Positions 8,910 to 12,010 of a stretch of DNA of 44,668 nucleotides are shown here, in pieces. Numbering within the stretch: position 1 is the stretch's first letter; each line of letters begins with the position of its first letter. The DNA comes from Verrucomicrobiia bacterium (GTDB taxonomy: Bacteria; Verrucomicrobiota; Verrucomicrobiia; Limisphaerales; UBA8199). The DNA is taken from NCBI GenBank assembly GCA_035946615.1, contig DASYZB010000152.1, positions 1 to 44,668 on the forward strand, read 5' to 3'. The position numbers and the translations under genes are program-made. The notes beneath the pieces are model-generated. The model was not told where the DNA came from. It searched no databases and saw only the letters and a list, made by a program, of their open reading frames with translations.

Positions 8910-8941
8910 TTGACCCTGCACTTAGGTGCAGGGTTTAGCAT
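8910..8941 (+). promoter_or_regulatory. MerR-type operator/promoter of the mer operon
   Basis: A TTGACC -35 box (8910-8915) and a TAGCAT -10 box (8936-8941) are separated by 20 bases, the over-long spacer that MerR-family activators correct. Inside the spacer is a perfect inverted repeat, ACCCTGCAC (8913-8921) TTAG GTGCAGGGT (8926-8934). The -10 ends only 9 bases before the merR ATG, so transcription should begin near 8948 and the merR message would be almost leaderless. The promoter reads into merR itself and everything downstream, so the operon is autoregulated. Confidence 0.85.
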
Positions 8942-8950
8942 CCTTTTAAG

Positions 8951-9376
8951 ATGCAAAGTCAGCCATCGAACGTGGATTTATTGACGATTGGCCGTCTGGC
9001 GCGGCTTGCCGAGGTCGGCGTTCCTACGCTGCGTTTTTACGAGCGCGCAGGCTTGTTGCCAAAAGCAGCGCGCACGGCGTCGAATTATCGCCTGTATCCC
9101 GATGAGGGAGTCGTCCGAATACGGTTTATTCGCCGCGCGCAGCAGCTTGGTTTCACGCTTAATGAGATCAGGGACCTGTTAGCATTGCGGACGAATCGCA
9201 GAACGTCCTGTGCAGAGGTCCGTTCCCGGGCGCACGCGAAAATCACTGATATTAAGGCGCGCATCCGTTCGTTGCGCCGGATGAGCCGAGCGCTGGCGAA
9301 GCTCGCCCGGGAATGCGACGCGCGCTCCAACGGAATCGAGTGTCCGATGCTGAAACATTTGGAAGGCAGGTTCTAG
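8951..9376 (+). CDS. merR: MerR mercury-responsive transcriptional regulator
   Basis: 141 residues. The N-terminal winged helix-turn-helix reads LTIGRLARLAEVGVPTLRFYERAGLL, with YRLYPDEGVVRIRFIRRAQQLGFTLNEI after it, followed by a long dimerisation helix. Three cysteines, Cys87, Cys122 and Cys131, have spacings of 35 and 9 residues, identical to the Hg(II)-binding triad of Tn501 MerR (82, 117, 126). This argues for mercury rather than copper, zinc or lead sensing. Unlike in Tn21-type operons the gene is not divergent but is the first gene of the operon it controls, as in many Gram-positive mer loci. Its TAG stop overlaps the GTG start of the next gene by one base. Confidence 0.93.
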   Translation: MQSQPSNVDLLTIGRLARLAEVGVPTLRFYERAGLLPKAARTASNYRLYPDEGVVRIRFIRRAQQLGFTLNEIRDLLALRTNRRTSCAEVRSRAHAKITDIKARIRSLRRMSRALAKLARECDARSNGIECPMLKHLEGRF

Positions 9377-9990
9377 TGTCAAAAAAAGCGAAGAGACAAG
9401 GCGTTCTCGTGGGAGGCAGCGCGGTTTCCGCAGTAGCCGCATCCCTTTGCTGCCTTGGGCCACTGGCGACGTTGGCGTTCGGGTGGGCAGGATTTGCGGG
9501 CGCGTCGTTCTTGACGAAGTGGCGGCCGGCCTTTCTGGGAGTCACGTTCGCACTGCTCGCTCTCGCCTGGTATCAGACCTACCGCAAGCCAACGAATGCA
9601 GCTTGTGAAAGCTGGCGCTGCGCGATAAAACCAACCGTGAAATGGACCAGGATCATTCTTTGGTTCACAACGGTGTTCGTTCTTGCTACTGCGACTTTTC
9701 CGAACTGGTTCGGAGCCGTTGCCCAGCACCTTGAATCTCGAACGCAAATTTCTTCCGGAATGCCCGTTTCGCAACTCGCCACCCTTCGCGTCAGAGTCCC
9801 ATTGATGGACTGCGATGCCTGTGCGATACTGATTCAAAACAAACTGCGCCAAACGGGCATTCAGAACGCAATCGTGACATTCCGCACCAAGGCAGCCGTG
9901 GTGCGCTATAATCCCGCCGAAGTTACCGCCAGGAATATAATGAACCTAATCGATGAAACCGGGTTCAAAGCTGAGCCCACAACCCCGTAA
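9376..9990 (+). CDS. merT: MerT-MerP fusion, mercuric ion transporter
   Basis: 204 residues from the GTG at 9376, which overlaps the merR stop (TAGTG); the frame is open further upstream but only inside merR. Residues 10-110 are MerT-like with three membrane helices; the first carries the adjacent Cys25-Cys26 pair in SLCCLGPL that receives Hg(II), and Cys77 and Cys82 lie in the loop after helix 2. Residues about 135-200 form an HMA domain with C146-D-A-C149 (CxxC) in VPLMDCDACA, ending in DETGFKAE, equivalent to MerP. The fusion therefore combines the periplasmic Hg scavenger and the membrane uptake protein in one chain. Four bases separate its stop from the next ATG. Confidence 0.9.
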   Translation: MSKKAKRQGVLVGGSAVSAVAASLCCLGPLATLAFGWAGFAGASFLTKWRPAFLGVTFALLALAWYQTYRKPTNAACESWRCAIKPTVKWTRIILWFTTVFVLATATFPNWFGAVAQHLESRTQISSGMPVSQLATLRVRVPLMDCDACAILIQNKLRQTGIQNAIVTFRTKAAVVRYNPAEVTARNIMNLIDETGFKAEPTTP

Positions 9991-9994
9991 TAAA

Positions 9995-10729
9995 ATGAAA
10001 GACAAATATCGAACAGCCGTCATGCGTGCGGTGCTCGTTGCCGCATCAACTTATCTCGCTTGCTTTCAGACAGCCCTCTGCGCGGACATAGCCCAAAGTT
10101 CCGCCCCAGCCACAAGCTCCGAACATGAAAGAGGAATGCTCAACCCCGATCGGGTTAGCTTTTACGAGGTGCCTCTGGTGTGTCCTGCAGCGCCACAAAT
10201 TGGCTGCGGCAGCGCCTCCAAGCCGCTCCTGCTCAGCCTCGAGCACAGCGGTGTCGTGTCGGAAGCATGGCTAAACCGCGCGGGAACCATTTTGGCTGTT
10301 GTCTGGAACGAGCAATCGAAAGCCCGAGAGCGGGCCAAAACGCTCAAGGCGATTCTTGAGCAAAAAGAGATGACGGCGAAGAAACTTACCGGGGATGCTG
10401 AAAAACAGGCACTCAAAGATTTTCAGTCCGGAAATGCCTGGTATCGCGGCGCCGGCGTGGACCGCCTTAGCGAGGAAGAAGCCGGAATTATGGCGGGCAG
10501 ATTGATTCGAAAGATTCGCACCGTGGTCACGTTAACCGGTCCAAACAGCAAAGCCATGCAGCAGCAATTCACCGAGATTCTCACACGCCGGCTGACGGGT
10601 GGGTTGCCGGACCGGGATTCGACTGAGAAAGAAATCCTGAAGATATGCCGGCAGTACCTCAATGAACAAGAGGTGAGTCAATTGCAGGAGGCTTTGAAGG
10701 GCTTTCGCCCGAATAGGGACGAGCCTTGA
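9995..10729 (+). CDS. Exported protein of the mer operon, possible divergent HMA fold
   Basis: 244 residues from the ATG at 9995 (an in-frame ATG at 9953 lies inside merTP). A signal peptide ends near LCA-D (residue 30). I do not recognise a named family. Residues 55-125 can be drawn as strand (SFYEVPLV), Cys63, seven residues, Cys71, helix (SKPLLLSLEHSG), strand (VSEAWLNRAG), strand (TILAVVWNE), helix (ERAKTLKAILEQ). This is the order of an HMA-type ferredoxin-like domain, with the two cysteines at the metal-site position but spaced C-x7-C instead of CxxC. The remainder (130-244) is helical and charged, with one further cysteine (218). Position between merTP and an Fe-S metallochaperone, with 4-base and 1-base junctions, supports a role in mercury or soft-metal binding at the envelope. 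That function is inference. Confidence 0.8.
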   Translation: MKDKYRTAVMRAVLVAASTYLACFQTALCADIAQSSAPATSSEHERGMLNPDRVSFYEVPLVCPAAPQIGCGSASKPLLLSLEHSGVVSEAWLNRAGTILAVVWNEQSKARERAKTLKAILEQKEMTAKKLTGDAEKQALKDFQSGNAWYRGAGVDRLSEEEAGIMAGRLIRKIRTVVTLTGPNSKAMQQQFTEILTRRLTGGLPDRDSTEKEILKICRQYLNEQEVSQLQEALKGFRPNRDEP

Positions 10730-11331
10730 TGGGTCTGTATGGGTTTATGTCGAATTGCTGCATAAATAATCCAGAGACCCCGGCAGCCAGCAGGGCCGGC
10801 AAATGCCCTGAATGCAGCGACCTGGGGACCCGAGTCGCAACAATCACTCTCAAGCACATCGTGAAACCGAGCTTTCTCGACGTTGCCAGTAGGCCCGGCT
10901 TCCTCTTCTGCCCTTCACCAAACTGTGGAACGGTTTACTTCCATCCGGATGGCGAACGATTCAGTAAAGGCGACTTGCGGGTGCGGGTTGGGCTCAAGGA
11001 GACGGAGGACCCCGTTATGCTCTGCTATTGTTTTGGCTTTACCGAAGCGATGGTGATTGAGGAAATCGATGCAACCGGCGATTGCGATATCGCGCAACGC
11101 ATCGCGTCGAGAGTCAGGGCAGGGGACTGCGCTTGCGAAGTGCGCAATCCACAGGGCTCATGCTGCCTGGGAACTGTTAGGGCAGCGGTGAAGCGATTGA
11201 AGGCCGCCAGGCTTCCTTTTGAAGCCAGGCCTGCAGCCGTTTCGGATCAAACTCTCAACAGCGGAACCGCAGCTAAGCTTCAGCTTCTGGCATTTGTGGC
11301 TATCCTGGGAGCAGGAGTTTTCGCTGCGTGA
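10729..11331 (+). CDS. CopZ N-domain-like Fe-S/Zn metallochaperone
   Basis: 200 residues from the ATG at 10729, which overlaps the preceding TGA by one base; the ATG at 10747 is an alternative and would give an MSNCC start. Thirteen cysteines are visible: C10-C11, C26-x2-C29, C61-x4-C66, C99-x-C101, C119, C134-x-C136 and C145-C146. The first sets resemble the Zn site and the later ones (CYCFGFT ... GDCACEVRNPQGSCCLG) the BFD-like [2Fe-2S] site of the N-terminal domain of Archaeoglobus CopZ, here without the C-terminal HMA domain. A hydrophobic tail (about 184-200) may anchor it in the membrane. Similar proteins occur in mer operons. It could pass electrons to or exchange metal with the Mer transporter. 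Confidence 0.8.
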   Translation: MGLYGFMSNCCINNPETPAASRAGKCPECSDLGTRVATITLKHIVKPSFLDVASRPGFLFCPSPNCGTVYFHPDGERFSKGDLRVRVGLKETEDPVMLCYCFGFTEAMVIEEIDATGDCDIAQRIASRVRAGDCACEVRNPQGSCCLGTVRAAVKRLKAARLPFEARPAAVSDQTLNSGTAAKLQLLAFVAILGAGVFAA

Positions 11332-11422
11332 GGGCATCCGGCCTGCAAAGGAGGCAGGTCGAGAATGGATTTTTTTTCGGGGGCACCCGGTTCGGGTCGG
11401 CGAGAGAGGGGAGGCGATTTGT

Positions 11423-11462
11423 GGTGACCATTGGTGACCATTGGTGACAACAGGTGACGTCT
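11423..11462. repeat. Four-copy 10-bp GGTGAC repeat
   Basis: GGTGAC recurs at 11423, 11433, 11443 and 11453, exactly 10 bases apart. The first two units are GGTGACCATT, the third GGTGACAACA and the fourth GGTGACGTCT. It lies about 90 bases downstream of the last mer-operon gene. No protein or hairpin explains it. Confidence 0.75.
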
Positions 11463-11545
11463 GGCTACAGGAAGGCTGAGAGTGTCCAAAAAGTGGATAG
11501 CCAGGGAAGGGAGAGGGGAGGGGGGAGTGTTTAGGTGCTACAGGG

Positions 11546-11645
11546 CGTTACACCGTTACAACCCGCATAAAACCGAGGCATTATGAAGATCAAACCGTTA
11601 CAAGGGCGTTACAAAGGCGTTACAAGACGTTCCAAGGCGTTACAA
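11546..11645. repeat. CGTTACAA repeats with 10-11 base phasing
   Basis: CGTTACA(A) starts at 11546, 11554, 11596, 11607, 11618 and 11638, with a CGTTCCAA variant at 11628. The last five are spaced 11, 11, 10 and 10 bases apart, so they lie on one face of the helix. The array looks like protein-binding iterons or a decayed tandem repeat; no replication gene is near. Confidence 0.7.
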
Positions 11646-12010
11646 GATATCCCCGAGCGCTGAAAGCGCGATTCATCCGGGCGATTTCAGTCCCAGAGAT
11701 ATCTCTCGTCGAATTCGAGGTGGTATCAAACCACAGAGGCGCGCAGATACAGAGGTTTGGAAAAGAGCCGCAAGCGGGGCCCAAAATACAGAGGCAGAGG
11801 CCAACACCGCCAACACCGCAGGTCCTTGCGCGGTCAGGCCTTAAGGTTTAGGCTGCCGGCAGGCAATCCGGCTGATGCATGGTGCCCGCGATCTAGACCA
11901 TCGATTAATTCAACCGCCGGGAGCAGAGGCAGCAGAGGCTCGGTCAGAGGATAAGCATCGTCCCACCTATCGACTCGACACTCGTTCAAGGCGCCCGTTC
12001 GCCGCAAAGG

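Follow-up and report, generated by a model that had tools for sequence, protein, structure and literature searches.

A putatively exported C-x7-C protein of mer-type operons as a likely additional metal-binding partner of MerTP

Protein X, encoded by the third gene of a merR-merTP-X-copZN operon in the window (the whole stretch of 44,668 nucleotides analysed here), appears on balance to be an exported thiol protein that serves as an additional metal-binding partner of MerTP, for a metal that we infer. On the best reading of the data, X would bind Hg(II) in the periplasm at a remodelled metal site and act there as a partner of MerTP, both the metal and the direction of its transfer being presumptive; it would thus probably represent a new type of protein that handles mercury. 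Few bacterial detoxification systems have been studied as well as mer operons, and X is a conserved component of mer-type loci in several phyla without an accepted match in the four family libraries Pfam, NCBIfam, PHROG and PADLOC.

Gene X, its operon and its linkage to mer genes

The four genes of the operon all lie on the forward strand with gaps of at most 4 bases (Table 1). X follows the end of merTP at 9990 after a 4-base gap, and its TGA stop codon (10727-10729) shares one base with the ATG of copZN. These junctions are as claimed in the initial annotation, and the X gene that it had placed between merTP and copZN proved real as judged by the open reading frame and the profile matches of the neighbours, among them the Pfam matches of the merTP product to MerT (E 1.1e-15) and HMA (E 1.5e-6). 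The operon is presumably transcribed as a single unit. A perfect 9+4+9 dyad, ACCCTGCAC-TTAG-GTGCAGGGT, lies ahead of merR at 8913-8934; with up to 3 mismatches allowed, its pattern occurred once in the window as compared to 0.04 expected occurrences, a count that is no independent test because the pattern was derived from the site itself. Just downstream of the operon, at 11420-11650, short GGTGAC and GTTACAA-type repeats were seen by eye. A hydrophobic N-terminus, likewise judged by eye, precedes the first domain of X, and X is probably exported. The order merR-merTP-X-copZN was also found in genome G1048 (locus L067), and merTP-X-copZN in G088 (L014), with MerR-like genes nearby, and in G050 (L017), where additional DNA separates X from copZN.

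Table 1. Positions in the window of the operon's features and of the parts of gene X.
Feature	Position	Strand	Basis
MerR-type promoter/operator, -35 TTGACC, -10 TTAGCA/TAGCAT, 19-20 base spacer	8910..8941	+	boxes assigned by eye
merR-like regulator gene (P0004)	8951..9376	+	best NCBIfam model MerR TIGR02051, 125.3 bits against a cut-off of 150.85
merTP, joining the MerT membrane part to a CDAC-bearing HMA (MerP) domain	9376..9990	+	profiles
Gene X, 244 residues, probably exported, C-x7-C ferredoxin-like plus helical domain	9995..10729	+	open reading frame and translation, alignment, model
X residues 50-131, predicted ferredoxin-like/HMA-like domain	10142..10387	+	model and structural matches
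Cys63 codon TGT	10181..10183	+	TGA in three G976 copies and L027; Ser in L067
Cys71 codon TGC	10205..10207	+	TGA in three G976 copies; Tyr in own-genome paralogue L002
X residues 133-236, predicted helical domain, W149...V155-D156-x-L158-S159-x-x-E162-A163 motif	10391..10702	+	alignment, model
Gene for CopZ N-terminal-like iron-sulfur/zinc metallochaperone (copZN)	10729..11331	+	zf_CopZ 4.6e-16; NCBIfam NF047645 5e-41

X (P0001) had no accepted match in Pfam, NCBIfam, PHROG or PADLOC and nothing at E ≤ 1 in the last three; of its two sub-threshold Pfam matches the better one, RRM_3 (E 0.0028), is below the Pfam cut-off and was dropped as chance. The HMA profile PF00403 did not match X at E ≤ 1, nor did any of 32 X members match it at E ≤ 0.01. 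A PDB sequence search gave a best E of 0.48, while phages and viral contigs as well as a single-protein homologue scan yielded no relatives. Finding relatives on genome contigs required an alignment as query, which led to 36 loci assigned by record title to Verrucomicrobiota, Bacteroidota, Kapabacteria, Ignavibacteria and Proteobacteria (Pseudomonadota), with near-duplicates among them (L022-L024; L046 and L048). Kapabacteria and Ignavibacteria are classed with Bacteroidota in GTDB. The family is rare: it was present in 4 of 97 relatives (own genome counted) and in 6 of 320 genomes of the order, and the only real match in a phylum sample of 387 genomes was the own genome. A further match in G446 falls by eye into the gap between hemB-like and cysS-like genes and was rejected as chance. 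Among 395 genomes from the phylum of a Chitinophaga genome X was found in three, including the centre and one weak match (G683, E 9.2e-4), and among 398 from the phylum of a betaproteobacterial genome only in the centre itself. The window's own genome (G000) carries on contig C125 (1462-1794, minus strand) a shortened paralogue of 110 residues, L002, in which most of the helical domain is missing and whose neighbours by eye resemble radical SAM and TVP38-type genes.

The initial annotation had expected homologues of X to adjoin mer genes, and most of them do. A MerT match (PF02411) was present within 5 kb of X in 28 of the 36 carrier genomes, in G483 via a sub-cut-off match, and was lacking within that distance in the other 8; none of 14 control genomes gave a PF02411 signal. 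Counted by place (42 minus three fragments, with two split pairs merged to give 37, plus G000 and G009), 23 of 39 X genes lie within 1 kb of MerT, seven at 1-5 kb and one farther away on the same contig, and eight have no MerT on their contig. The carriers had been collected via X rather than MerT, and many of the contigs are short, which works against seeing linkage. With phmmer, 33 of the 36 loci showed one or more mer-type neighbours, although some of the MerR, ArsR and MerA-like matches may be generic; the stretches examined at L038, L040 and L043 contained none. MerR or ArsR neighbours occur at many loci, MerA- and MerB-like ones at several. Thus, X shows a trait of mer components, i.e., regular linkage to merT, merP and merA together with a mer-type regulator.

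Furthermore, a tblastn search of 72,556 plasmid records returned four X matches, all four in mer loci: X follows merT-merP (merT2-merP2) on pMR68 of Pseudomonas K-62, lies beside an ArsR gene and merTP on a Fibrella plasmid, and on two Rhodanobacter denitrificans plasmids is divergent from merR, about 2.5 kb before merT-P-C-A-D. In the available part of the pMR68 paper the cluster is described as merT2-merP2 and no third mer gene is named there (PMC3737084). The mer parts given in the portion of PMC3466566 at hand are merR, T, P, C, E, F, G, H, A, B, D, arsR and TRASH, and nothing on the X family appears in the accessible sections of PMC12195606 and of PMC8261052, the latter lacking the words 'hypothetical' and 'merTP' altogether; text searches of an open-access library gave no recognisable account of it.

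Several loci join X to mer proteins in one polypeptide. A one-frame MerT-HMA-X fusion was found at L025, L026 and L042, an HMA-X fusion at L062, and in a Methylococcaceae genome (L018, 4551-5678) MerT is fused to X without an HMA match, as if X had replaced MerP. At L047 the open frame of MerT continues into an X that is itself split. The C-terminus of MerT faces the periplasm, where a signal peptide would also deliver X. In a Kapabacteria genome (L040, 4917-5747) X is fused to a C-terminal GDCCVxC domain (E 5.2e-20) at a locus devoid of mer-type neighbours.

Predicted structure and the two cysteines

AlphaFold2 modelled X from 33 alignment rows with a mean pLDDT of 85.4 and block means of at least 90 over residues 51-230. 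The secondary structure of the model (strand 54-58, helix 72-83, strands 88-94 and 99-104, helix 110-123 and a two-residue strand 129-130) agrees from its first strand to helix 110-123 with the beta-alpha-beta-beta-alpha unit that had been drawn by hand in the initial annotation. The predicted fold is, as proposed there, ferredoxin-like, and HMA domains come first among its structural matches. The top Foldseek match was the HMA domain of yeast Ccc2a (E 0.029, probability 1.00), and none among the matches listed reached E 0.001. In VIA, ATP7B led with Z 7.8 (rmsd 1.9, 69 residues aligned), all structural Z values being below 8, and oxidised MerP (1osd) followed with Z 6.6 (rmsd 2.5, 71 aligned). 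By their titles, 31 of the best 50 VIA rows are HMA domains or HMA-type metallochaperones; RND pumps and ribosomal S6 permutants make up the remainder of 19 (Z 6.3-7.1). Nothing in a viral fold library matched at E ≤ 0.001. The structural matches of the model fit an HMA-like unit, common descent being unproven. Modelled alone, the C-terminal part of X is predicted to form a five-helix unit (pLDDT 89.2); its best PDB match had Z 7.2 (rmsd 3.4, 72 aligned) and its best Foldseek match E 0.47, and this lack of a clear PDB match is no evidence of a new fold.

Both cysteines of the C-x7-C motif are conserved with few exceptions, as had been anticipated. Among distinct rows with a letter at the position, i.e., excluding gaps and fragments, Cys63 was present in all 41 and Cys71 in all but one of 42 rows of the first family alignment, and both were invariant in two curated alignments (32/32 and 33/33). 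In the 32-row alignment (A2), from which near-duplicates and the sequences L027, L044, L047 and L049 with stops, frame breaks or partial length were excluded, G72, W92, G97, W149, L158, E162 and A163 are invariant as well, and many Bacteroidota rows carry an additional Cys-rich tail. Whether the homologues lack CxxC had been asked in the earlier work: all 32 have C-x7-C and none a CxxC at that place. The alignment-query set is biased because one of its two peptide patterns contained both cysteines. Exceptions in the pattern-free BLAST and profile sets are Tyr71 in L002, Ser63 in L067, a frame break between the two cysteines in G009 and TGA codons. The L067 gene (1501-2133, G1048) has its Ser for Cys63 within a complete merR-merTP-X-copZN operon. 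Since the cysteines are kept across phyla, the observation is more than chance.

The initial placement of the pair where HMA proteins carry CxxC holds in part. In a comparison with a profile of 40 MerP-type HMA domains, an alignment of low probability (3.2), only Cys71 aligns with the first cysteine of CxxC, Cys63 being contributed by the loop ahead of it. The earlier interpretation as a whole is partly supported: its fold, mer linkage and cysteines stood, and the helical domain, the fusions and the selenocysteine form described below were unforeseen.

An apparent selenocysteine form

One of the 320 genomes of the order, G976, contains three full-length X copies with two in-frame TGAs each: VPFQ*GSAPGFG*GSKAKPIL, VPFG*PAAAGLG*GSKARPIL and VPFG*PTAAGLG*GSKAKPIL. 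The only stops before the terminator (TAA in one copy, TGA in two) are TGAs exactly at both Cys positions. Two of the copies differ in 38 of 211 codons with a dN/dS of 0.34 and have kept both TGAs. All U-x7-U copies come from this single metagenome-assembled genome (10.1 Mb in 760 contigs, 93% complete, 5% contaminated). G976 encodes SelB (317.9 bits against a cut-off of 242.25), and SelB exceeded its cut-off in both TGA-form assemblies, G976 and G050, and in none of the five other carriers G000, G009, G088 (56% complete), G1048 and G545. Similarly, tRNA-Sec(tca) was detected in G976 and G050, while the best matches in G000, G1048 and G088 were tRNA-Ser. On the contigs of these copies, a gene for a MerA-like protein (with GTCVNVGC and a terminal-region CC) precedes one X copy by about 1.1 kb, and a MerR-like gene follows another; the genome also has a Cys-type copy containing an in-frame TAG (L068). 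On two contigs shared with U-x7-U copies, L077 (C198) and L078 (C321), both on the minus strand, encode MerP-like HMA domains reading GMT*AGC and GIT*AGC, in which TGA replaces the first metal-motif cysteine.

The copy L027/L006 of G050 has TGA at Cys63 only and was not counted as a working Sec gene because its frame is lost about 80 codons downstream. A hairpin was considered as proof of the L027 TGA and rejected: the z-score of -4.1 had been obtained for 71 hand-chosen bases and fell to -1.8 in a uniform comparison, weaker than in the Cys homologues L068 and L018 (-3.3 each). Rfam gave no match in 221 bases around this TGA. More generally, folding-energy z-scores of the TGA copies overlap those of the Cys homologues and single out no SECIS hairpin; the case for Sec insertion therefore rests on codon position, machinery and selection. 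Paired TGAs at the Cys positions together with SelB and tRNA-Sec thus indicate that the X family has an apparent U-x7-U selenoprotein form, in which the codons would be read as Sec. The available part of a selenoproteome review from 2026 (PMC13188914), which speaks of 119 families or subfamilies and gives no motif in some rows, does not list U-x7-U, its nearest motifs being UxxU and UxxxxU. The form would represent an additional selenoprotein family, one with a new spacing, and a paired change from Cys to Sec points to the two catalytic or ligand residues.

Possible roles of X and comparison with known systems

We propose that the N-terminal domain of X has an HMA/MerP fold in which the metal pair has been rebuilt as C-x7-C, with Cys71 where helix 1 begins, at the position of the first HMA cysteine, and Cys63 supplied by the loop before it. 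Within the periplasm, the two cysteines would most likely form a two-thiolate complex with Hg(II) or a different thiophilic ion, and X would exchange this ion with the MerP domain of MerTP, which is encoded by the adjacent gene and sometimes fused to X; the helical C-terminal domain probably docks on a partner or forms a dimer. The two-thiolate geometry, the transfer partner and its direction are what we infer. In the Sec-using relative both ligands are apparently Sec, and such a selenolate site should bind Hg(II) even tighter. Hg(II) is favoured because the partners are MerT, MerP and, at several loci, MerA- or MerB-like proteins, and because a joint change from Cys to Sec would suit a soft metal.

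The main rival sees X as a periplasmic redox protein of the thiol-disulfide (or selenol) type which keeps the cysteines of MerP and MerT reduced, Cys63 and Cys71 cycling between disulfide and dithiol; we consider this unlikely, yet worth serious attention. The strict pairing of the two cysteines and their joint replacement by TGA would be in line with such a cycle, and the part of PMC13188914 available to us deems most uncharacterised prokaryotic selenoproteins likely redox proteins. Against it stand the ferredoxin-like fold prediction, whose matches are headed by HMA domains, and the fusions of X, five to MerT and/or HMA parts and one to a GDCCVxC domain. No thioredoxin-type chain occurred among the best 50 Foldseek and 50 VIA rows, which does not in itself rule out that fold.

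It is less probable still that X binds a metal other than Hg(II), e.g., Cu(I), within an operon serving as a broader thiophilic-metal system. The last gene of the operon encodes a CopZ N-domain protein, and the MerR-like regulator stays below its equivalog cut-off, with ZntR (116.1 bits) and CueR (109.5 bits) as close next-best NCBIfam models. Moreover, the window's genome, 96% complete and equipped with the merR-merTP operon, has no MerA over the curated cut-off, and none of its four best MerA matches has a Cys pair in the last 25 residues; binding without reduction, or another metal, is therefore possible there, and for the same reason even the metal is deduced. Against this stand the MerT or MerTP neighbours in most carriers, the MerA- and MerB-like ones in several, and the presence of X on a known mercury-resistance plasmid, pMR68. 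That X is instead an assembly or docking subunit of MerTP, its Cys pair forming a structural disulfide and carrying no metal, seems very improbable: the large conserved helical domain with its own invariant W149, L158, E162 and A163 and the fusions to MerT or MerTP would suit such a role, but a structural disulfide would not be expected to become two Sec together, and the two cysteines are located roughly at the metal-binding position of HMA domains.

Returning to X as an Hg(II)-binding partner of MerTP, a more far-reaching proposal, which we put forward tentatively and regard as possible rather than probable, is that of a new mercury-handling family with an HMA-like C-x7-C fold, whose U-x7-U form would be a genetically encoded two-selenolate trap or chaperone for Hg(II) with a selenoprotein MerP alongside. 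If true, this would amount to a selenium-based mercury-trafficking chain in bacteria, and it opens the testable question of whether the strong mercury-selenium bond is used on purpose in periplasmic Hg(II) traffic.

Among known systems, the GDCCVxC (seleno)protein NF041374, a Cys-rich domain of which Sec forms exist, is joined to X in L040; it is a separate C-terminal domain, matched in this one of the 32 A2 members only. MerG is, like X, specified by an accessory mer gene from Pseudomonas K-62, albeit on another plasmid, pMR26; it is thought to reduce cell permeability to phenylmercury (PMC3737084) and is grouped with inner-membrane proteins (PMC3466566). As far as the available parts of these papers go, the two were compared by position only, merG lying between merA and merB1 on pMR26 and X beside merT2-merP2 on pMR68. 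The UxxU metal-binding (seleno)protein NF041115 and the MerT/CopZ selenoproteins NF045683 and NF045877 resemble X as mercury- or copper-type metal-binding families with Sec forms, and the UxxU family and CopZ-type Sec forms are included in the accessible part of PMC13188914; X differs from them in having no NCBIfam match at E ≤ 1 and in its Sec spacing of U-x7-U. The closest comparison is with MerP and other HMA proteins (PF00403, TIGR02052), with which X shares its position next to or fused with MerT, the predicted ferredoxin-like fold and two cysteines around strand 1 and helix 1. X differs from them in having C-x7-C in place of CxxC, no HMA profile match and an extra helical domain, and in the window and many relatives it accompanies a MerP domain, whereas L018 represents MerT-X without HMA.
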